A stretch of DNA of 36,180 nt, from assembly GCA_031274525.1 (NCBI GenBank), contig JAISQA010000028.1:1-36180 (forward strand). The letters are read 5' to 3'. This document shows positions 3,656 to 35,828 of this stretch, piece by piece. The translations under genes were made by a program, and so were the position numbers. This stretch comes from Candidatus Margulisiibacteriota bacterium (GTDB lineage: Bacteria > Margulisbacteria > Termititenacia > Termititenacales > Termititenacaceae). The first letter of the stretch is position 1; each line of letters opens with the position of its first letter. The notes below the pieces were generated by a model that had not been told where the DNA came from, made no database searches, and worked only from the letters and a program-made list of their open reading frames with translations.

Positions 3656-4045
3656 TCAGCCGTTTGTTAACTCCAGCAGGACAGTGGCGCCGTCTTTTTT
3701 ATAAGCCGTCAGCGTATACTCGCCGAGCCCGGCATTGAGGCTGTAAATAATCCGCCCCGCCGTGTCCCCGGCCAGATAATCCCGCCCGGTAAAAGGATTG
3801 CGGTAGGGCTGCACAGCCATTATGCCGCTCAACTGCGCCAGCGGCAGAGCTTCGCCGGCGGGATAAAAATTATTATCCAGATAATAACCCTCCACCTCGG
3901 CTTGTACATTGTACAATAGTGTGCGCACCGCCGCTTCTCTGGCTCTGGTCTGCGCGCCGGCCAGATTGGGGATCAGCGCCGCGGAAAGCATGCCCATGAT
4001 CGCCAGCACCACCAGCAATTCCAGCAAAGAAAAACCTTTTTGCAT
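3656..4045 (-). CDS. Type IV pilin / pseudopilin-like protein
   Basis: The 129-residue product starts MQKGFSLLELLVVLAIMGML. This is a class III prepilin signal: cleavage after Gly4 leaves Phe1 and Glu5 in the mature protein, followed by one hydrophobic helix. The rest contains YYLDNNFYPAG, YRNPFTGRDY and Gly/Tyr-rich strands like the short GspG/ComGC group. I start at 4045 rather than 4096 because AGGAGGTG lies 6-7 nt upstream. A full sigma54 promoter match precedes it. The comM-gspF operon just upstream, also with a sigma54 site, points to a DNA-uptake or competence pilus, although a type II secretion role cannot be excluded. Confidence 0.88.
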   Translation of the reverse strand: MQKGFSLLELLVVLAIMGMLSAALIPNLAGAQTRAREAAVRTLLYNVQAEVEGYYLDNNFYPAGEALPLAQLSGIMAVQPYRNPFTGRDYLAGDTAGRIIYSLNAGLGEYTLTAYKKDGATVLLELTNG

Positions 4046-4098
4046 AAAACACCTCCTCTCCGGCCTATTTTTCACAATCAATCTAACGTATGACAATC

Positions 4099-4114
4099 AG
4101 CAAAAAATATGCCA
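4099..4114 (-). promoter_or_regulatory. Sigma-54 promoter of the pilin gene
   Basis: The minus strand reads TGGCATATTTTTTGCT, matching TGGCA-N6-TTGCW with correct -24/-12 spacing. Predicted transcription starts near 4088, leaving a 5' leader of about 43 nt with a strong ribosome site. The upstream side forms ATGCCAGGTGGCAT, a palindrome around the -24 element. Confidence 0.85.
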
Positions 4115-4255
4115 GGTGGCATAAAAAATTGATTTTTGCTTCCTGTCCCGCTTTATCCGGATCGCGCGCTGCCGGCGGCAGAACAGGCCGCGCCGGAACC
4201 GCTGCCTGCTTCAGCTGAAATTTACGGATTTATTACAGCTGCCGGCCGGTAATGT

Positions 4256-4261
4256 TATAAT
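4256..4261 (+). promoter_or_regulatory. Extended -10 placed for a leaderless start
   Basis: TGTTATAAT is followed by 6 nt and then the ATG at 4268. No ribosome site is present. Transcription starting 7 nt after the -10 would begin at the A of the ATG. Confidence 0.6.
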
Positions 4262-4267
4262 CTAACC

Positions 4268-4597
4268 ATGCGGAAAGTTTTAGGGCTTTTGTTGATTTTA
4301 CTCTGCTGCGGGCTGGCCGAAACCAGACTCGGCCGCTGGTATGTGGTCGTCAACGATAATTCGCCTTACGCCGCGGTGTCCGGCGACAAAACCCTCAGCA
4401 GACTGCCCAAAGACGCCGTTGTCCGCCTGATCAAAAACGAGACTATTGCCGAAACTATCGTTATCTTCCCGCTGCGGGTGCTTAAATTAATGGTCACGGT
4501 CGAGCCGCGCGGCAACTGGCTGGTCGAATACAACACGGAAAACCGCGGCTATATGTGGGACAGCGACCTGCAGCTCAGTTCCCGGCAAAATTATTAA
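4268..4597 (+). CDS. Small secreted SH3-like protein, unknown function
   Basis: The 109-residue product begins with a signal peptide (MRKVLGLLLILLCCGLAET). The rest reads as short strands ending GNWLVEYNTENRGYMWDSDL, like a bacterial SH3-type fold (WVEY...GYMW). There are two Cys in the signal region, but the lipobox is poor, so signal peptidase I cleavage is more likely. It converges on gspF with a 9-bp gap. No known partner is visible; its place beside the pilus genes may be chance. Translation is probably leaderless. Confidence 0.6.
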   Translation: MRKVLGLLLILLCCGLAETRLGRWYVVVNDNSPYAAVSGDKTLSRLPKDAVVRLIKNETIAETIVIFPLRVLKLMVTVEPRGNWLVEYNTENRGYMWDSDLQLSSRQNY

Positions 4598-4606
4598 GCC
4601 GCCCGC

Positions 4607-5512
4607 TTAAAACTCCAGTCCGGACAGGCTGAACAAAGGACGAAAAAAACTCCAGCTGATCAGCGCGATAACACCGCCGGCAAACAAAAGCAGCCCCGGC
4701 TCCAGCCAGAATAAAATGCCGTCGATTTTGCGCTGATAATTCTGCCGACAGGCATTCTGTAAATACTCCAGACCGCGGGAATAATTGGCTCCGCCGCCGA
4801 CGGTCAGGAGTTTTAATTCCGCGCGGCTGAAAACTTCCGCTCTGGCCAGCGCCTCGCCGACCGGCAGGCCTTTATTCAGATAAAAATAAATCCGCGCCAG
4901 TTCAGGCTGCGGATTGGCCGGCAGATATTCCGCCAGAAAATTGGCCAGTGGTATACCGGCGCGGTCTGTCAAAAGCAGCAGATTCAGCTGCTGGAGCGTA
5001 TTCTGCAGGCGTTTTAAGCCGGTGCGCTCCAGCAGCAGTCCAGACAGCGGCCGAACCGCACAGCCCGGCGCCACCACCAGACCTATAATCAGCCATTGCC
5101 AGAAGCGCGGACTCTGCCGGCCGCCCAGCTCCGCGGTCAGACCGTTAAACATGGGCAGCAGAAAAAATATGAAGCCCAGCAGCAGGAGCAGCGTAAAGAC
5201 CAGCGTCAGGACCGGATAGGCCGCCTTTTGCCGCAGGGCCTTCTGAAAACTTATTTTGTTTTTATAATACTCCAGCGCCAGCGCGATAAAATCCCGCAGC
5301 CGGCCGTTCAGCTCCGCCGTGCGCAGGATCAAGGCCATTTCCGGTTCCAGCTCCCAGACCGCGCTCCAGGCCTGTCCGCGCTGCAAACGCTGGCGGTAAC
5401 GGCAGCCCAGCTCGCTGGCCAGCAGCTCCAGTATCTCGCCGGGCTGATAACCGCAGCGCAAAAAAGCGTCCAGCTCTTCCAGCAGCTCCAGATTTTGCTT
5501 GAGTTCAGGCAT
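4607..5512 (-). CDS. GspF/PilC/ComGB-like inner-membrane platform protein
   Basis: The 301-residue protein is shaped like a T2SSF platform protein. A cytoplasmic helical domain (1-115, with CGYQPGEILELLASELG) leads to the first membrane helix pair (YPVLTLVFTLLLLLGFIFFLLPMF, then WLIIGLVVAPG). A second helical domain (GIPLANFLAEYLP ... LPVGEALARAEVF) and a last membrane helix (LLLFAGGVIALISWSFF) follow. It is shorter than typical GspF (about 400) and closer to ComGB. I start it at ATG 5512 because it overlaps the end of comM by 8 bp, a coupling arrangement; the longer track start lies deep in comM. It would anchor pilus assembly in the membrane. No assembly ATPase is in the window. Confidence 0.75.
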   Translation of the reverse strand: MPELKQNLELLEELDAFLRCGYQPGEILELLASELGCRYRQRLQRGQAWSAVWELEPEMALILRTAELNGRLRDFIALALEYYKNKISFQKALRQKAAYPVLTLVFTLLLLLGFIFFLLPMFNGLTAELGGRQSPRFWQWLIIGLVVAPGCAVRPLSGLLLERTGLKRLQNTLQQLNLLLLTDRAGIPLANFLAEYLPANPQPELARIYFYLNKGLPVGEALARAEVFSRAELKLLTVGGGANYSRGLEYLQNACRQNYQRKIDGILFWLEPGLLLFAGGVIALISWSFFRPLFSLSGLEF

Positions 5513-7037
5513 GCGGCACCCCCGGCAAAAAAGAGTTTTGTTTATACTGCAGGGCTTCGGCGATATGCTCGTCACGCACCTTATCCATGCCGCCTAAGTC
5601 CGCTATAGTCCGCGCGACCTTGAGCACCCGGTCGTAAGCGCGCGCGGACAGACCCAGCTTCTCCGCCGCCGCAGCGAGCAGCCGCCGCGCGGCGGCATCT
5701 ATACCGGCCAGTGACCGCAGGTCGGACGGACACAGCTGGGCGTTGGTATACAGACCGGAGCGCCCGGCAAAGCGGCTGAGCTGTCTGGCGCGCGCGGCCG
5801 TCACCCTCTGGCGGACCTGCGCCGAGGTCTCGCCGCCGGATTTTGCGGCCAGTTCACCGGCGCTCAAGGACGGCACTTCCACAAAAATATCTATTCTATC
5901 CAGAACCGGCCCGGACAATTTGCGCCAGTAATTAGCGATCTGCGGCGGCGAGCAGGAGCATTTTTTACTGGCGTCCAGCGCGTACCCGCAGGGACAGGGA
6001 TTGAGCGCCGCGGCCAGAATAAACCGTGCCGGATAGGTGACCGCCGTCAAAGCCCGCGAGATAGTGATCTCGCCGTCTTCCATAGGCTGGCGCAGGACTT
6101 CCAGCACCTGCCGGTCAAATTCCGGAAATTCATCCATAAATAAAACGCCCAGATGCGCCAGCGATATTTCACCGGGCCGGGGATTGTGCCCGCCGCCGGC
6201 TATGCCGGCCGCGCTGATCGTATGATGCGGCGCGCGGAACTGCCGGCAGCGCACCAGACCGCGGCGCAGCAGACCGGCCACGCTGTATATTCTGGACACT
6301 TCGATAGACTCCTCATAAGTTAATTCCGGCAGGATCGAGGGCAAACGCCGGATCAGCATCGTTTTACCGCAGCCGGGCGAACCAGCCAGCAGGACATTGT
6401 GGCCGCCGGCCGCCGCTATTTCCAGCGCGCGCTTGGCCAGCGGCTGCCCTTTGACTTCCGCAAAATCGCCGCTAAACGCCTGCTCCGCGGCGGTCTGTTC
6501 CGGCTGATAGGGGCTAAGCTCCGCCTTGCCGGACAGATAGGCCAGCGCCTCCGCCAGATCGCGCAGGGGAATTACCTTTAAATCCCTGAGCACAGCGGCC
6601 TCCTCCGCATTCTGCGGCGCGAGCAGCAGTTCCCGTATCCCGCGTCGGCACGCCTCTATAGCGATGGCCAGCACGCCGCGCACCGGCTTGATATCGCCGT
6701 TGAGCGACAGCTCGCCCAGAAAAAGTTTGTCGCGCAAAACCGCCGCGGGAAACAAACCGGCATTGGCCAGCATGCCGATCGCGATCGGCAGGTCAAAAGC
6801 CGGCCCTTCTTTGCGCAGATGCGCCGGCGCCAGATTGATCGTAAATTTACAAAACAAATCCACCGGGATCCGGGAATTTTTAATGGCAGACTCGATGCGC
6901 TCCTTGCTTTCTTTGACCGCGGCATCCGGCAGACCCACGATAGTGTGCCGCGGCAGGCCAAACATGGTATCCACCTCGACCCGCACCATTTGCGCTTCCA
7001 GACCCAGCACCGCCGCCGAATTAACTGTAGTTAACAT
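5505..7037 (-). CDS. comM: ComM/YifB family Mg-chelatase-like AAA ATPase
   Basis: This 510-residue protein is the full family length. The N-terminal ChlI-like domain (about 20-140) carries GLPRHTIVGLPDAAVKESKE and NLAPAHLRKEGPAFDLPIA. The AAA core carries Walker A GSPGCGKTM, FRAPHHTISAAGIAGGG, LFMDEFPEF, NPCPCGY and GPVLDRIDIFVEVP. The C-terminal lid has ARQLSRF and AYDRVLKVARTIADL. ComM is a helicase that extends recombination branches during natural transformation in Gram-negative bacteria. The ATG has AAGGAGG 5 nt upstream. A sigma54 promoter lies at 7166-7181. It overlaps gspF, so recombination and pilus functions are made together. Confidence 0.92.
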   Translation of the reverse strand: MLTTVNSAAVLGLEAQMVRVEVDTMFGLPRHTIVGLPDAAVKESKERIESAIKNSRIPVDLFCKFTINLAPAHLRKEGPAFDLPIAIGMLANAGLFPAAVLRDKLFLGELSLNGDIKPVRGVLAIAIEACRRGIRELLLAPQNAEEAAVLRDLKVIPLRDLAEALAYLSGKAELSPYQPEQTAAEQAFSGDFAEVKGQPLAKRALEIAAAGGHNVLLAGSPGCGKTMLIRRLPSILPELTYEESIEVSRIYSVAGLLRRGLVRCRQFRAPHHTISAAGIAGGGHNPRPGEISLAHLGVLFMDEFPEFDRQVLEVLRQPMEDGEITISRALTAVTYPARFILAAALNPCPCGYALDASKKCSCSPPQIANYWRKLSGPVLDRIDIFVEVPSLSAGELAAKSGGETSAQVRQRVTAARARQLSRFAGRSGLYTNAQLCPSDLRSLAGIDAAARRLLAAAAEKLGLSARAYDRVLKVARTIADLGGMDKVRDEHIAEALQYKQNSFLPGVPHA

Positions 7038-7051
7038 TTTTACCTCCTTGT

Positions 7052-7075
7052 GTATTACAAAATGTATTACAAAAC
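7052..7075. repeat. 24-nt repeat shared with the thiH 5' end
   Basis: Two 12-nt units (GTATTACAAAAT, GTATTACAAAAC) lie in the comM leader. The same 24 nt, with one mismatch and on the opposite strand, lie at 15069-15092 in the first codons of thiH. Confidence 0.7.
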
Positions 7076-7165
7076 CTTTGCGCGCAAGAGCGTGTCCTTT
7101 TTTGCCGCGCCAGCAATAACACCTCTATTGCCTCAAAGCACCGGTTTTGTTATATCTCCGAAAAA

Positions 7166-7181
7166 AGCAAAATTTATGCCA
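7166..7181 (-). promoter_or_regulatory. Sigma-54 promoter of comM-gspF
   Basis: The minus strand reads TGGCATAAATTTTGCT, matching TGGCA-N6-TTGCW with exact spacing. The -24 flank (CACCTGGCATA) is the same as at the pilin promoter. It predicts a leader of about 117 nt before comM. Confidence 0.8.
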
Positions 7182-13081: not shown

Positions 13082-13972
13082 ATGGCCAGTAATTACACAG
13101 GAAACTACACAGGAATAAGCGCCGGAGGGCAGATGAAGGCTGCGGATGTGACCGACGCTTTGAACAAAATGGAGAAAGTGGAATATAAAGTAACAGAGCT
13201 GAGTTCCAGTTCTACCGACACCCAGTATCCGTCGGCCAAAGCGGTGTATACCGGTCTGGCCGCCAAAGCCGCGGCCAGCGACGTGAGTGCTTTATCCGGC
13301 ACAGTGACCGCTTTACAAACGACGGTCAGCGGCTTGCAGGACAAGCTGCCCGCAGGCACTATCCTGATGTATGACGGCTCCGGCTGGGAAAATAATAAAA
13401 CTCTCGTCGGCTGGTATAAATGCGACGGCAACAACGGTACGCCCAATCTAACCAATCTGTTTATCCGGGGCGGAGCCAGCAGCGGCGGCAGTGGCGGAGC
13501 GGACAGTCAAAGCATAACTTTAACCACTGCCAATCTACCGGGCCACAGTCATAGCGTTACTGACGCGGGGCACAGTCATACAGTTACGGACAGCGGGCAT
13601 ACCCATACCGATTCCGGGCACTCCCATTCGCACACGCACGACACCCACACCGGATCAGTACAGGGATACGACGCAGGAAACACAAATATTTTTGGCAACG
13701 CCAGCGGAGTATTCTCTGCGAGCGGGAATGCCAATAGACAGCAATCCTCTGATGGCGGCGCCAGAGACGCTTATTACAAGCTGTCTCTTTCCGCCGGTCA
13801 TTCAACTGACTCTACTTCCGGCAAGGCGGCGATATCCAGCAACGCTACAGGCATCACAATTGACAGTAAAACCACCGGCATTTCTCTCGGCAATACCGGC
13901 TCCGGGGCGGCTTTCACCGTAAACACTGTCCCCGCTTATTATGCGCTGATTTATATTAAAAAAGTCGCGTAA
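13082..13972 (+). CDS. His-rich phage tail-collar-like protein (complete)
   Basis: The 296-residue protein has no signal peptide. Residues 1-95 form a helical stalk (VTDALNKMEKVEYKVTELSS, then a VSALSGTVTALQTTVSGLQD heptad-like segment), suggesting a trimeric coiled coil. A collar module follows (LPAGTILMYDGSGW, GWYKCDG, TPNLTNLFIRGG). Next comes a His-rich run of 7-9-residue units (GHSHSVTDA, GHSHTVTDS, GHTHTDS). The end, VPAYYALIYIKK, is the usual last strand of tail-collar proteins. It is the same family as the gene at 1-767 (LPxGTILMYDGxGW shared). No other phage genes flank it. Likely a receptor-binding or surface-binding fibre; export route unknown. Confidence 0.82.
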   Translation: MASNYTGNYTGISAGGQMKAADVTDALNKMEKVEYKVTELSSSSTDTQYPSAKAVYTGLAAKAAASDVSALSGTVTALQTTVSGLQDKLPAGTILMYDGSGWENNKTLVGWYKCDGNNGTPNLTNLFIRGGASSGGSGGADSQSITLTTANLPGHSHSVTDAGHSHTVTDSGHTHTDSGHSHSHTHDTHTGSVQGYDAGNTNIFGNASGVFSASGNANRQQSSDGGARDAYYKLSLSAGHSTDSTSGKAAISSNATGITIDSKTTGISLGNTGSGAAFTVNTVPAYYALIYIKKVA

Positions 13973-21391: not shown

Positions 21392-22612
21392 ATGCTCGAG
21401 ATCACAGGCAAATATAATACAGCTAAGGTATATACAAATAACCTTGATGATTTTTCCAGAGAACAGATTGAGACTCTCTGTAACCAATCTTTTACGGCAG
21501 GGAGTCAAATACGCCTAATGCCAGATGTTCATGCGGGAGCAGGTTGTACTATCGGAACTACTATGACAATTACAGACAAAATAGTCCCTAATCTTGTTGG
21601 CGTGGACATTGGTTGTGGAATGGAAACGGTAGTGCTTAAAGCAGATAGCCTGGCTTCTCGTGATTTTGAGCCTGCCCGATTGGACACGCTAATTCATGAA
21701 CATATTCCTGGTGGAATGAATGTTCGTAAAGCACCTCATGAATTTGCTGAACAAATCGAGCTTGATAAAATTCGTTGTCCTGCTATTCATATTTCTAGAG
21801 CTAAATTAAGCATTGGAACTCTTGGCGGAGGAAATCATTTTATAGAAGCTGATAGAGACGATGAGAATAATTTATACATTGTTATTCATTCTGGCAGCAG
21901 GCATTTAGGCAAAGAGGTTGCCGATTATTATCAAACAGAAGCCTGGCACCAGCTTAACCACAATCGGAAGAAAGATATTACAGAGACGATTACCCGCTTG
22001 AAAGCTATTGGTCAACAGAAAAATATTCAAAATGAAGTTAAAAGACTAAAAGCGCAAACCATTGTAGATATTCCACCAGCGTTAGCGTATGTCAGCGAAG
22101 ATCTTTTTACTGACTATATAAACGATATGAAAATAACTCAGCAATTTGCCATGCTCAATCGTAAGGCAATGTTATCTGTAATTCTAGAGGGGTTGAATAT
22201 TGCCCAAAACGAAATAGAAAATTTTACTACTATTCATAATTACATTGATACGGAAGCAATGATCCTGCGTAAGGGTGCGGTATCTGCTAAGGCTGGCGAA
22301 AAGTTTATTATTCCTATCAATATGCGTGATGGCAGTTTGATTTGTGAAGGGCTAGGTAATCCAGATTGGAACTTTTCTGCTCCACATGGTGCAGGTCGCC
22401 TAATGAGCAGGAAGAAAGCTTTTGCAACCCTACAAATGGAAGAATTCAAAGAATCCATGACAGGAATTTATTCCACCTCTGTAAATGAAGCAACCCTGGA
22501 TGAAAGTCCAATGGCTTATAAAAATATGGATGATATTGTAACGAACATAATACCTACTGCTAAAATTCTGAAAATCATTAAGCCAATCTATAATTACAAA
22601 GCTGCAGAATAA
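21392..22612 (+). CDS. rtcB: RtcB family RNA ligase
   Basis: The 406-residue RNA ligase joins 2',3'-cyclic phosphate (or 3'-phosphate) ends to 5'-OH ends using GTP and Mn2+. Metal-site motifs GVDIGCGME, GGGNHFIEAD and VIHSGSRHLGKEV are present, and APHGAGRLMSRKKA holds the guanylylated His. The C-terminus (YSTSVNEATLDESPMAYKNM) is standard; the length is nearer the short RtcB2-like type than E. coli RtcB. It is much AT-richer than the flanking genes, so it was probably acquired. It is followed by a kinase and a Thg1-like gene, forming an RNA-repair cassette that could mend tRNAs cut by toxins or phage-response nucleases. Confidence 0.93.
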   Translation: MLEITGKYNTAKVYTNNLDDFSREQIETLCNQSFTAGSQIRLMPDVHAGAGCTIGTTMTITDKIVPNLVGVDIGCGMETVVLKADSLASRDFEPARLDTLIHEHIPGGMNVRKAPHEFAEQIELDKIRCPAIHISRAKLSIGTLGGGNHFIEADRDDENNLYIVIHSGSRHLGKEVADYYQTEAWHQLNHNRKKDITETITRLKAIGQQKNIQNEVKRLKAQTIVDIPPALAYVSEDLFTDYINDMKITQQFAMLNRKAMLSVILEGLNIAQNEIENFTTIHNYIDTEAMILRKGAVSAKAGEKFIIPINMRDGSLICEGLGNPDWNFSAPHGAGRLMSRKKAFATLQMEEFKESMTGIYSTSVNEATLDESPMAYKNMDDIVTNIIPTAKILKIIKPIYNYKAAE

Positions 22613-22761
22613 TGTCTGAACCAACAATAAAACAAAAGATCAAAAAACTTTTCAGAGATTATTGTTTAGATATATTTTCTTTTGGCTATACGCTAAAATT
22701 ACTAAATGGAAGCAATTATCTTTATAGGTATTCAAGCCAGCGGGAAGTCAACTTTTTATAA
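22612..22761 (+). CDS. Possible 49-codon ORF overlapping rtcB stop and the kinase start
   Basis: An ATG shares its A with the rtcB stop (TAATG) and opens 49 codons (MSEPTIKQKIKKLFRDYCLD...). It overlaps the kinase start in another frame. The coupling geometry is suggestive, but the peptide matches nothing I know. It may be a small protein or simply let ribosomes reach the kinase. Confidence 0.3.
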   Translation: MSEPTIKQKIKKLFRDYCLDIFSFGYTLKLLNGSNYLYRYSSQREVNFL

Positions 22762-23152
22762 AGAAAATTTCTTTAACACCCATGTCCGCATTAGTAATGA
22801 TTTATTAAAAACGAAACACCGAGAAGAATTATTATTGGAATACTGCAACTCTGCTCAAATGTCTTTTGTTTTAGACAATACAAATGTTACAAGACAAGTA
22901 CGAGCAAACTATATCAATATCATTAAACAAATGAAAATCCCAATTAGGGGATATTATTTCAAGTCTGATATAAAGCAGGCTTTACTCTGGAATAAAACCA
23001 GATATGGCAAAGAAGCAATCCCGGAAAAAGGAATTTTCAGCACTCATAAAAAGCTGGAACTTCCTAGTATAGCTGAGGGGTTCACAAATTTATTCTATGT
23101 GGAGATAGTTAATGGTAAATTTATTATAAAGGACTGGCAAAATGAAGTTTGA
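22706..23152 (+). CDS. P-loop polynucleotide-kinase-like protein
   Basis: The 148-residue AAA-type P-loop kinase starts MEAIIFIGIQASGKSTFY (Walker A GIQASGKST). SFVLDNTNVTRQVRANYINI and the Arg-rich lid region (LLWNKTRYGKEAIPEKGI) match small polynucleotide kinases of the T4 Pnk type. In an RtcB operon it would adjust RNA 5' or 3' ends before or after joining. CTAAAAT lies 6 nt before the ATG, hinting at an internal promoter. It overlaps the Thg1-like gene by 11 bp. Confidence 0.8.
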   Translation: MEAIIFIGIQASGKSTFYKENFFNTHVRISNDLLKTKHREELLLEYCNSAQMSFVLDNTNVTRQVRANYINIIKQMKIPIRGYYFKSDIKQALLWNKTRYGKEAIPEKGIFSTHKKLELPSIAEGFTNLFYVEIVNGKFIIKDWQNEV

Positions 23153-23738
23153 TGAATTAGACACACAAATGCGTGTCTATGAAACAACCAATGACATCCG
23201 TGTATTACAGGGAATGTATATGGTTGCCAGACTGGATGGTCGTAATTTTACAACACTAACCAAAGACAGCAAGAAATTTGAAGTTCCGTTTGATGAGAAA
23301 TTTTGCAATATAATGGTAACAACAACAGAACATTTAATGAATTGTGGATTTAAGGTTGTTTATGGATATACAGAAAGTGATGAAATATCGCTCTTATTTG
23401 ATATTGCCGATGATACATTTGGACGCAAGATTAGAAAGTATAATTCTATATTGGCTGGAGAAGCATCAGCTAAATTTAGCTTATTGCTGAATGATATGGC
23501 GGTCTTTGATTGCAGAATATGTCAGTTACCTAATATAGAAGTGAATAATCCATTAAATGCCGTCCTATCTTTATTGCCGCCAGTATTGATCAGACACTTA
23601 TCTTTTTTGATTTTTTCTTTGGTTTCCCGCAATACTTTGTCCACATTCGTGAACTCTGTGCCAAATCTTTCATTGAACTTCTCTATAATTACGGACAATG
23701 GATCGAATTGCTTTTCTTTTTTACCAGTACCGCCTTGA
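23142..23738 (+). pseudogene. Truncated Thg1-like 3'-5' RNA polymerase / tRNA(His) guanylyltransferase
   Basis: Residues 1-134 are Thg1-like: MYMVARLDGRNFTTLTKDS and YGYTESDEISLLFD hold the catalytic acidic residues, and LAGEASAKFS and VFDCRICQLPNIEV follow. Thg1 proteins add nucleotides to the 5' end of tRNAs and repair 5'-truncated tRNAs. After PNIEV (about 23543) the reading frame runs on into unrelated DNA, the complement of an hsdR fragment, so the second half, including the conserved WRQxDAxRNS region, is lost. The 199-codon ORF is therefore a chimera. It may be inactive, although the polymerase-like palm is mostly present. Confidence 0.8.
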
Positions 23739-33577: not shown

Positions 33578-33997
33578 TTATTTAATTTCTATTGTCCGCG
33601 CTTTTTTCCCGGCTTTTTTGGGCACGATCAATTTCAGCTCGCCGTTCTTAAATTCGGCTTTGACCGCGTCCGCATCGATATTCTGCCCCAGCGCGAAACG
33701 TCTTTCAAAACTGCCGTACTGCCTTTCCAGCCGGTAAAAGTTTTTCTGGTCAGTCTCTTTTTTGAAGCTCCGCTCACCGGCCAGCCGGAGCACATTGTCT
33801 TCATTTATTTCGATCTTGATGTCCTTCTGTTCCAGACCGGCCAGGTCGGCCTCGACATAAACATTGTCCTTATCCTCGTGAATATCGACCTTCGGATAAA
33901 AACCCCAGTTGTGTTCCGCGTGGCCGTCCAGCGGATTGTCAAAGAACCTTTCCAGCAAATCGCCAAAATCCCCTCTCCTGATTAAACCCGGTAACAT
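33578..33997 (-). CDS. Small heat-shock protein Hsp20
   Basis: The 139-residue alpha-crystallin-type chaperone has YPKVDIHEDKDNVYVEADLA, LEQKDIKIEINEDNVLRLAG, ERSFKKE, RRFALGQNIDADAVKAEFKN and GELKLIVPKKAG, then the C-terminal IEIK (IxI-type). It holds unfolding proteins. I start at ATG 33997 because AGGAG lies 8 nt upstream; the track start at 34006 touches the ribosome site. Upstream, 34035-34050, is a near-match to a sigma54 promoter. Confidence 0.93.
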   Translation of the reverse strand: MLPGLIRRGDFGDLLERFFDNPLDGHAEHNWGFYPKVDIHEDKDNVYVEADLAGLEQKDIKIEINEDNVLRLAGERSFKKETDQKNFYRLERQYGSFERRFALGQNIDADAVKAEFKNGELKLIVPKKAGKKARTIEIK

Positions 33998-34034
33998 ATT
34001 TACCATCTCCTTTCGTTGTGCTGTCCACTATATA

Positions 34035-34050
34035 AACAATTTTTATGCCA
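34035..34050 (-). promoter_or_regulatory. Weak sigma-54-like site before hsp20
   Basis: The minus strand reads TGGCATAAAAATTGTT. The -24 half and spacing match the three good sites, but the -12 GC is GT. It may be a weak site or a decayed one. Confidence 0.4.
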
Positions 34051-34175
34051 GGCTGACCGGACTGCGCGCAGGGCATACTGAATAAACGCCTCAATATCAG
34101 TTTTTTGGCGTTTCCTGCGGATTGGCGGCAATTCCGCGGCCAAAACAATGTATATTTTCTATACATGTAATTGTC

Positions 34176-34198
34176 AAAAAATTATACATAGTGTAAAA
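34176..34198 (+). promoter_or_regulatory. Sigma-70 promoter of the sigma54 activator
   Basis: TTGTCA is followed, after 17 nt, by TAAAAT, only 9 nt before the ATG at 34209. The leader would be 2-3 nt. No ribosome site is present. Confidence 0.6.
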
Positions 34199-34208
34199 TA
34201 TTTATACT

Positions 34209-35231
34209 ATGTCCAGAGGAAATTATCGTTTCGAGACCCTGCACAATGTGCCTGTCCCTTTGCGGATGATCGGCAATTCTCCGGCGCTGTATGCCCTTTT
34301 TCAGCAGATGAAGGCGGTTATTGACAGCGCGGTGCCCGTCCTGCTCGAAGGCGAGTCCGGCACGGGCAAAGAACTGGCCGCCCGGATCATTCATTATCAG
34401 AGCGGCCGCAAGGACAAGCCTTTCGTCGCGATCAACTGCGCGGCGCTGCCCGAAACGCTCATTGAGGCCGAGCTTTTCGGCTACGAAAAAGGCGCGTTCA
34501 CCGGCGCCGACCGCAGCAAGCCCGGCAAATTTGAAATAGCGCACCGGGGGACTATCTTCCTCGATGAGATCGGCGAAATGCCGCTGGGCCTGCAGACCAA
34601 ACTGCTGCGCGTCCTGCAAAACAAGCAGCTCTCCCGCCTCGGCTCCAACGAAATTATCGACATTGACGCGCGGGTTATTTCCGCCACCAACCGCAAGCTC
34701 ATCAATGAAGTCGCCGCGCAGAAGTTCCGCGAGGATCTGTATTACCGGCTGGCGGTGTTCCCGATCACCGTGCCGCCCCTGCGCGAGCGGGGGCAGGACA
34801 TTATCCTGCTGGCGGAATATTTTCTGCGCGAGGAAAATCTCAACGGCAAAAAACAAATAGCCGGATTTAGCGAGCAGGCCAGAGCCAGCATGCTGCATTA
34901 CAGCTGGCCGGGCAATATCCGCGAGCTGGAAAATATCGTCAAGCGCGCTTATCTCCTGAGCAGCGGACAGCTGATAGAACACACCGACCTGCTGTTCGGC
35001 AATCTCCTCAGCACGCCGGTGAACAGCGCCGCCGCTCCGGCTGCGTTCAGCGGGCGCACTCCGGTCAGCGAGCACAGCCGGATTGCCCCTGCGCCCGGCC
35101 CCCTGCCCGCGCTGGCCGAGATCGAAAAGAACGCTATTCTGGCACGGATAAAATATTTTAACGGCAATATCACGCAGGCCGCACGTTCGCTGGGGCTGAC
35201 CCGGGCGACAGTATACAAGAAAATAAAATAA
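34209..35231 (+). CDS. Sigma54-dependent activator without sensor domain (PspF-like)
   Basis: The 340-residue protein starts almost directly with the AAA+ domain: Walker A GESGTGKELAARIIH, the sigma54-contact loop GAFTGA, Walker B GTIFLDEIGEM, the arginine-finger region FREDLYYRLAVFPI, PPLRERGQDI and WPGNIRELENIVKRAYLL. The end is a Fis-type HTH (YFNGNITQAARSLGLTRATV). No receiver, PAS or GAF domain is present, so control must come from a partner protein or from its amount, as for PspF. It is encoded next to hsp20 and near the sigma54 promoter at 35813. The comM and pilin sigma54 sites about 27-30 kb away in the window are likely targets. Confidence 0.93.
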   Translation: MSRGNYRFETLHNVPVPLRMIGNSPALYALFQQMKAVIDSAVPVLLEGESGTGKELAARIIHYQSGRKDKPFVAINCAALPETLIEAELFGYEKGAFTGADRSKPGKFEIAHRGTIFLDEIGEMPLGLQTKLLRVLQNKQLSRLGSNEIIDIDARVISATNRKLINEVAAQKFREDLYYRLAVFPITVPPLRERGQDIILLAEYFLREENLNGKKQIAGFSEQARASMLHYSWPGNIRELENIVKRAYLLSSGQLIEHTDLLFGNLLSTPVNSAAAPAAFSGRTPVSEHSRIAPAPGPLPALAEIEKNAILARIKYFNGNITQAARSLGLTRATVYKKIK

Positions 35232-35812: not shown

Positions 35813-35828
35813 TGGCATATTTTTTGCA
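35813..35828 (+). promoter_or_regulatory. Sigma-54 promoter of the Rpn-type nuclease gene
   Basis: TGGCATATTTTTTGCA matches TGGCA-N6-TTGCW and equals the pilin promoter in 15 of 16 positions. The same ATGCCA-NN-TGGCAT palindrome surrounds the -24. Predicted start near 35840 leaves a 42-nt leader with AGGCAGG before the ATG. Confidence 0.85.

Follow-up and report, generated by a model that had tools for sequence, protein, structure and literature searches.

Sigma-54-type promoters were found before a type IV pilin-like gene and before comM-gspF in a 36,180-nucleotide stretch of Margulisiibacteriota DNA (the window), and both sites likely belong to a sigma-54 competence regulon, as judged from sequence and conservation. 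All of the evidence is sequence, taken from draft genomes of uncultured organisms. The sites can be read directly, as can where they lie and how far they are conserved; what they imply for transcription is inferred.

Exact TGGCA-N6-TTGCW matches had been claimed before the pilin gene and comM-gspF in a preliminary description of the window, in the correct orientation and with a common -24 flank. Both claims held, with the TGGCN7TTGC core present at its set spacing, and the common flank is CCACCTGGCATA (Table 1). A third exact site in the window, before an Rpn-type nuclease gene, was missing from that description. The true start of the pilin is the ATG at 4045, which is preceded by the ribosome-binding site GGAGGTG and lies 53 nt downstream of the promoter site, and the promoter itself sits within the inverted repeat ATGCCA-CC-TGGCAT. 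The start of comM is 128 nt downstream of its sigma-54 site, and the gspF/comGB-like gene overlaps the comM end. Since the window copy of the Rpn gene is truncated by the contig end, the family identity was demonstrated on another copy in the genome (PF12784 5.2e-50, TIGR01784 1.3e-52).

Table 1. Positions in the window of the promoters and genes under study.
Feature	Position	Strand	Evidence
Putative sigma-54 promoter of pilin, TGGCATATTTTTTGCT	4099..4114	-	exact TGGCA-N6-TTGCW on coding strand; function inferred from sequence
Type IV pilin-like gene, 129 aa	3656..4045	-	Pfam N_methyl 8.3e-08
Putative sigma-54 promoter of comM-gspF, TGGCATAAATTTTGCT	7166..7181	-	exact TGGCA-N6-TTGCW on coding strand; function inferred from sequence
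comM, YifB-family Mg-chelatase-like AAA+ ATPase, 510 aa	5505..7037	-	TIGR00368 3.5e-172 and Pfam
gspF/comGB-like platform protein	4607..5515	-	Pfam T2SSF 1.2e-13
hsp20	33578..34006	-	PF00011 8.3e-23
Sigma-54-like promoter of hsp20 (TGGCATAAAAATTGTT; TGGCATNAAAATTGTT)	34035..34050	-	divergent from enhancer-binding protein
Enhancer-binding protein without receiver domain; AAA+ with GAFTGA, Fis-type HTH	34209..35231	+	PF00158 2.1e-70, HTH_8
Putative sigma-54 promoter of Rpn-type gene, TGGCATATTTTTTGCA, within inverted repeat ATGCCAGTTGGCAT	35813..35828	+	pattern match
Rpn-family (PDDEXK_2) nuclease gene, 5' part, truncated by contig end	35882..36180	+	

Two other features of the window were observed. 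At 21392-23738, an RtcB-like ligase gene is grouped with a small kinase-like one and with a Thg1-like gene that appears broken after about 140 residues; this is a possible tRNA repair cluster. Phage-tail-collar-like, histidine-rich repeat proteins, as judged from translations, are scattered in the genome (window 13082-13972 and three other loci); for one of these loci, L113, the name DinD is tentative and carries no evidential weight.

The source genome (1.6 Mb, 92 contigs), whose nearest named relative is Candidatus Margulisiibacteriota isolate Gx481_bin108, was scanned with the pattern TGGCA-N6-TTGCW, and the reversed pattern was used as the control. There were 27 exact matches versus one for the control. 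All 20 sites with a T after TGGCA were at gene starts, and the remaining seven exact matches, which lack this T, were within genes or away from plausible gene starts (Fisher p about 1e-6, with the division by T chosen after the data had been seen). Exact sites precede comEC (TIGR00361 1.4e-70), a 318-aa GspE/PilB/ComGA-like ATPase gene, ssb with an LPD13 gene, and an SGAT-serA operon, which continues with a prepilin peptidase gene and two pseudopilin-like ones. They also precede a GIY-YIG gene, BrnT-BrnA, a REP-type transposase (RAYT), an ORF6N gene and many Rpn/PDDEXK_2 genes. A near match with a variant -12 box, ACCTGGCATAAATCCTGCT, was located before pilN, an unnamed gene and the secretin. 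Further near matches were found before the divergent pair nadC and a LolA-like gene, before hrcA-dnaK (sigma-54-like ACCTGGCATAAGATATGCA; locus L110, 2155-3022), before additional Rpn and ORF6N copies, and before hsp20. The Rpn copies with the promoter number about 15 altogether, two of which are at contig ends. Pfam and NCBIfam profiles support the pilin, T2SSF and ComM identities. Hence, at the level of sequence, most parts of the DNA-uptake machine carry a sigma-54-type site. An exception is dprA, for which no site was found upstream in the six family genomes with a readable dprA upstream region. The site set also includes the non-competence genes Rpn, ORF6N, hrcA, hsp20 and nadC.

Several features of the repeated sites were noted in passing. 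The Rpn (PDDEXK_2) family is large and has a nearly identical sigma-54 promoter and leader, and the sister genus has expanded ORF6N likewise. At window 4097-4114 and at six other loci, an ATGCCA-N2-TGGCAT inverted repeat overlaps with the -24 box. In genus g2 there is a second TTGGCAAAAA box, which lies either just upstream in inverted orientation or about 30 nt downstream in direct orientation.

In 31 of the 42 promoters, a distance of 11, 12 or 13 nt separates the final base of the 16-mer and the start codon. Transcription by sigma-54 usually starts about 11 nt downstream of this final base. Because the observed spacing matches this distance, the mRNAs from these 31 promoters are predicted to be leaderless or nearly so, starting 0-3 nt before the start codon; this is inferred from the sequence, and the 5' ends are unmapped. 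The sites of pilin, ssb, Rpn and the window comM lie farther from the start codon, at 51-128 nt, and Shine-Dalgarno-like stretches are present there.

Conservation within the family was examined in eight genomes of two genera. The full site before comM is present in all eight. The comEC site is also present in 8/8; it is immediately upstream in the source genome and G001, and 170-800 bp upstream in the others, with an ORF6N gene between the sigma-54 promoter and comEC in G003 and G006. The ATPase site directly precedes the gene in the source genome and G001. In G002 and G005 it lies within 80-260 bp, and in G003 and G006 it is about 630 bp upstream, beyond an LPD3-domain ORF of 191-193 aa. The pilN site was found in the source genome, G002, G003 and G006, and the pilin site in the source genome, G001, G002 and G003; both are present in two genera. 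The site also occurs before GIY-YIG (G005), a transposase (G002 and G003) and many ORF6N copies. As a separate observation, ORF6N or LPD3-domain genes look inserted behind competence promoters at two loci each in G003 and G006.

Outside the family, the short ComGA-like ATPase gene has the site in six of seven cases (G014, G016, G019, G022, G024 and G027), from four families (f3, f5, f8 and f11), whereas none of the 11 long GspE/PilB paralogues and none of the four PilT-like genes does (Fisher p 9e-5 for short versus long and PilT paralogues). Nothing was found within 250 bp upstream of comM in other families, and a wider search revealed sites before yraN(UPF0102)-comM in six genomes (G011, G014, G016, G019, G024 and G027). 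The site precedes comEA-comEC in five genomes (G009, G011, G014, G019 and G027); the ComEA and UPF0102 identities were checked for these other-family loci. In the other-family DNA examined, 18 distinct site/start pairs have the 11-13 nt spacing, compared to 0 for the reversed pattern, and 17 of the 18 belong to the short ATPase, yraN-comM or comEA-comEC. Since the loci were fetched around these competence genes, the neighboring genes serve as the control.

The distribution has limits. No site was found before comM in G009, G022, G010 and more distant families, and none was seen before comEC in G016, G022 and G024 within the DNA regions examined. G017 and G020 represent two families without a site upstream of comEC; comM of G020 likewise has none, and no ComM was found in G017; none of the sites checked in these two genomes precedes a competence gene. 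ComM belongs to the YifB family and is present also in bacteria without known competence. Among 80 ComM loci from many phyla, which were picked by similarity ranking and are unevenly sampled, only the Margulisiibacteriota locus has a site within 600 bp; outside this phylum the count is 0/79.

In the mechanism that we propose, sigma-54 RNA polymerase would wait in the closed state at the -24/-12 promoters of scattered DNA-uptake genes. The members would be pilin, comM-gspF, the ComGA-like ATPase gene, pilN-secretin, the SGAT-serA-prepilin peptidase-pseudopilin operon, comEC and ssb, together with comEA-comEC and yraN-comM in other families. An ATP-driven enhancer-binding protein would open all of these promoters together, so that the uptake machine and ComM branch migration would be made simultaneously, and many of the mRNAs would be leaderless, with a 5' end 0-3 nt ahead of the start codon. 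Transcription by sigma-54, the joint switch and DNA import itself are inferred from sequence alone. That DNA uptake and recombination are jointly switched by sigma-54 had been suggested in the preliminary description, and absence of rpoN or lack of conservation in relatives would have refuted it. Since rpoN was found in the genome (TIGR02395 2.2e-95) and the sites are conserved, the inference survived both. In the scan of competence genes proposed there, sites were found for comEC, the PilB/ComGA-type ATPase, ssb, the prepilin-peptidase operon and, with its variant -12 box, the secretin operon, whereas dprA had none. The suggestion is thus supported at the sequence level and is broader than originally stated, with transcription and competence still inferred.

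Three strong PF00158 enhancer-binding proteins were identified in the genome, namely C11, C12 and the window protein. C11 has a REC-AAA-HTH architecture and orthologues in G001-G006. C12 is REC-AAA and is present in G000, G001, G002, G003 and G006; its G002 orthologue, checked with Pfam, has no HTH, and it adjoins a pseudopilin-prepilin peptidase operon in G002 and G003. Orthologues of the window protein are 74-77% identical in G001-G005. The window protein was considered as the competence switch, and this is less likely because hsp20 is divergent from it and has a sigma-54-like site that is also present in G002 and G003, with a weaker version in G001; the protein more likely serves hsp20. No common 7-mer above shuffles was found as a shared upstream activator motif in the promoter upstream regions. 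None of the three proteins is tied to the competence promoters. Apart from the question of the switch, hsp20 and the receiver-less enhancer-binding protein (window 33578-35231) are kept in relatives and are perhaps a sigma-54 heat-shock unit like PspF/pspA.

Other explanations of the sites were weighed. The pilus and DNA-uptake genes could be merely one part of a general sigma-54 stress or envelope regulon that includes hsp20, hrcA-dnaK, Rpn nucleases and transposases. The sigma-54-like sites at hsp20 and hrcA, the Rpn copies with the site (at least 13, and two more at contig ends), and the presence of nadC and SGAT downstream of sites all speak for this view. However, in other families almost all sites with the start-codon spacing belong to the ComGA-like ATPase, yraN-comM and comEA-comEC, the paralogous pilus ATPases have no sites, and the -12 boxes of hsp20 and hrcA differ (TTGTT and TATGCA). 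We therefore consider a general stress regulon unlikely.

Still less support exists for the idea that an unknown regulator, whether repressor or activator, uses TGCCA-N2-TGGCA as its operator, with the -24/-12 likeness secondary. The inverted repeat does overlap the -24 box before the pilin, ssb, RAYT, GIY-YIG and Rpn genes, but -24/-12 sites without the repeat are found at comEC, pilB and SGAT and in other families, conservation extends to the TTGC of the -12 box, and the start codon lies where a sigma-54 start site would suit it; this reading appears very improbable. It could also be argued that the sites have no promoter function and are hitch-hiking sequence or dispersed repeats, as a long leader is common to the Rpn copies in the source genome and another leader is common to ORF6N, pilin, comEC and pilB in genus g2. 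Single-copy genes in five families, though, have sites with unrelated flanks and equal spacing, which all but rules out this possibility.

A sigma-54 competence regulon would be a known type of control with a new reach. In Ralstonia solanacearum, rpoN1 is needed for natural competence, which was explained through pilA and claimed by the authors as the first report (Ray et al. 2015, PMC4371752). The two systems are alike in the requirement of sigma-54 for transformation, which is inferred here, and in the -24/-12 site before the pilin gene. In Ralstonia, however, the effect is via pilA and type IV pili only, and comEC and comM are unreported as targets, whereas in Margulisiibacteriota the DNA channel, ComM, the ATPase, the secretin operon and ssb each have their own site. 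Control of pilA by PilR/RpoN likewise involves a -24/-12 promoter at the pilin, but the Margulisiibacteriota sites extend to DNA import and recombination genes, and their start-codon spacing predicts leaderless mRNAs. SigX/ComX and SigH of Firmicutes are similar in that one alternative sigma factor serves scattered late competence genes; unlike sigma-54, which requires ATP-driven activators, they are sigma-70-family factors with other promoters. The sigma-54 regulons of Francke et al. 2011 (PMC3162934) and of Chlamydia (PMC7482065) share the promoter type. The words competence, comEC and DNA uptake are absent from the text of the former, and comEC appears solely in a reference title in the latter. 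The preliminary description had remarked that sigma-54 control of comM is seldom described. We found no report of sigma-54 control of comEC or comM in the literature searched, which links sigma-54 to competence only via pilA; publications outside it may differ.

A bolder reading is possible, and as a whole the evidence leaves us evenly divided on it. In much of Margulisiibacteriota, sigma-54 would be the competence sigma factor by ancestry and would act via leaderless mRNAs, and within one family its promoter would have been captured by Rpn nucleases, ORF6N and polyvalent-type genes and a REP-type transposase, which would then be made when foreign DNA enters. Rpn nucleases increase RecA-independent recombination in E. 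coli (PMC5350276), and a preprint described an anti-phage toxin-antitoxin function of Rpn (PMC10327210). The captured genes would be candidates for genes that exploit competence.

The switching of competence is understood for few lineages. The sites provide a sequence signature for locating competence genes, including unknown ones, and the predicted leaderless sigma-54 transcripts are a case open to testing. If the proposed regulon is real, DNA uptake in these uncultured bacteria would hinge on an ATP-driven activator, and therefore on a sensed signal.
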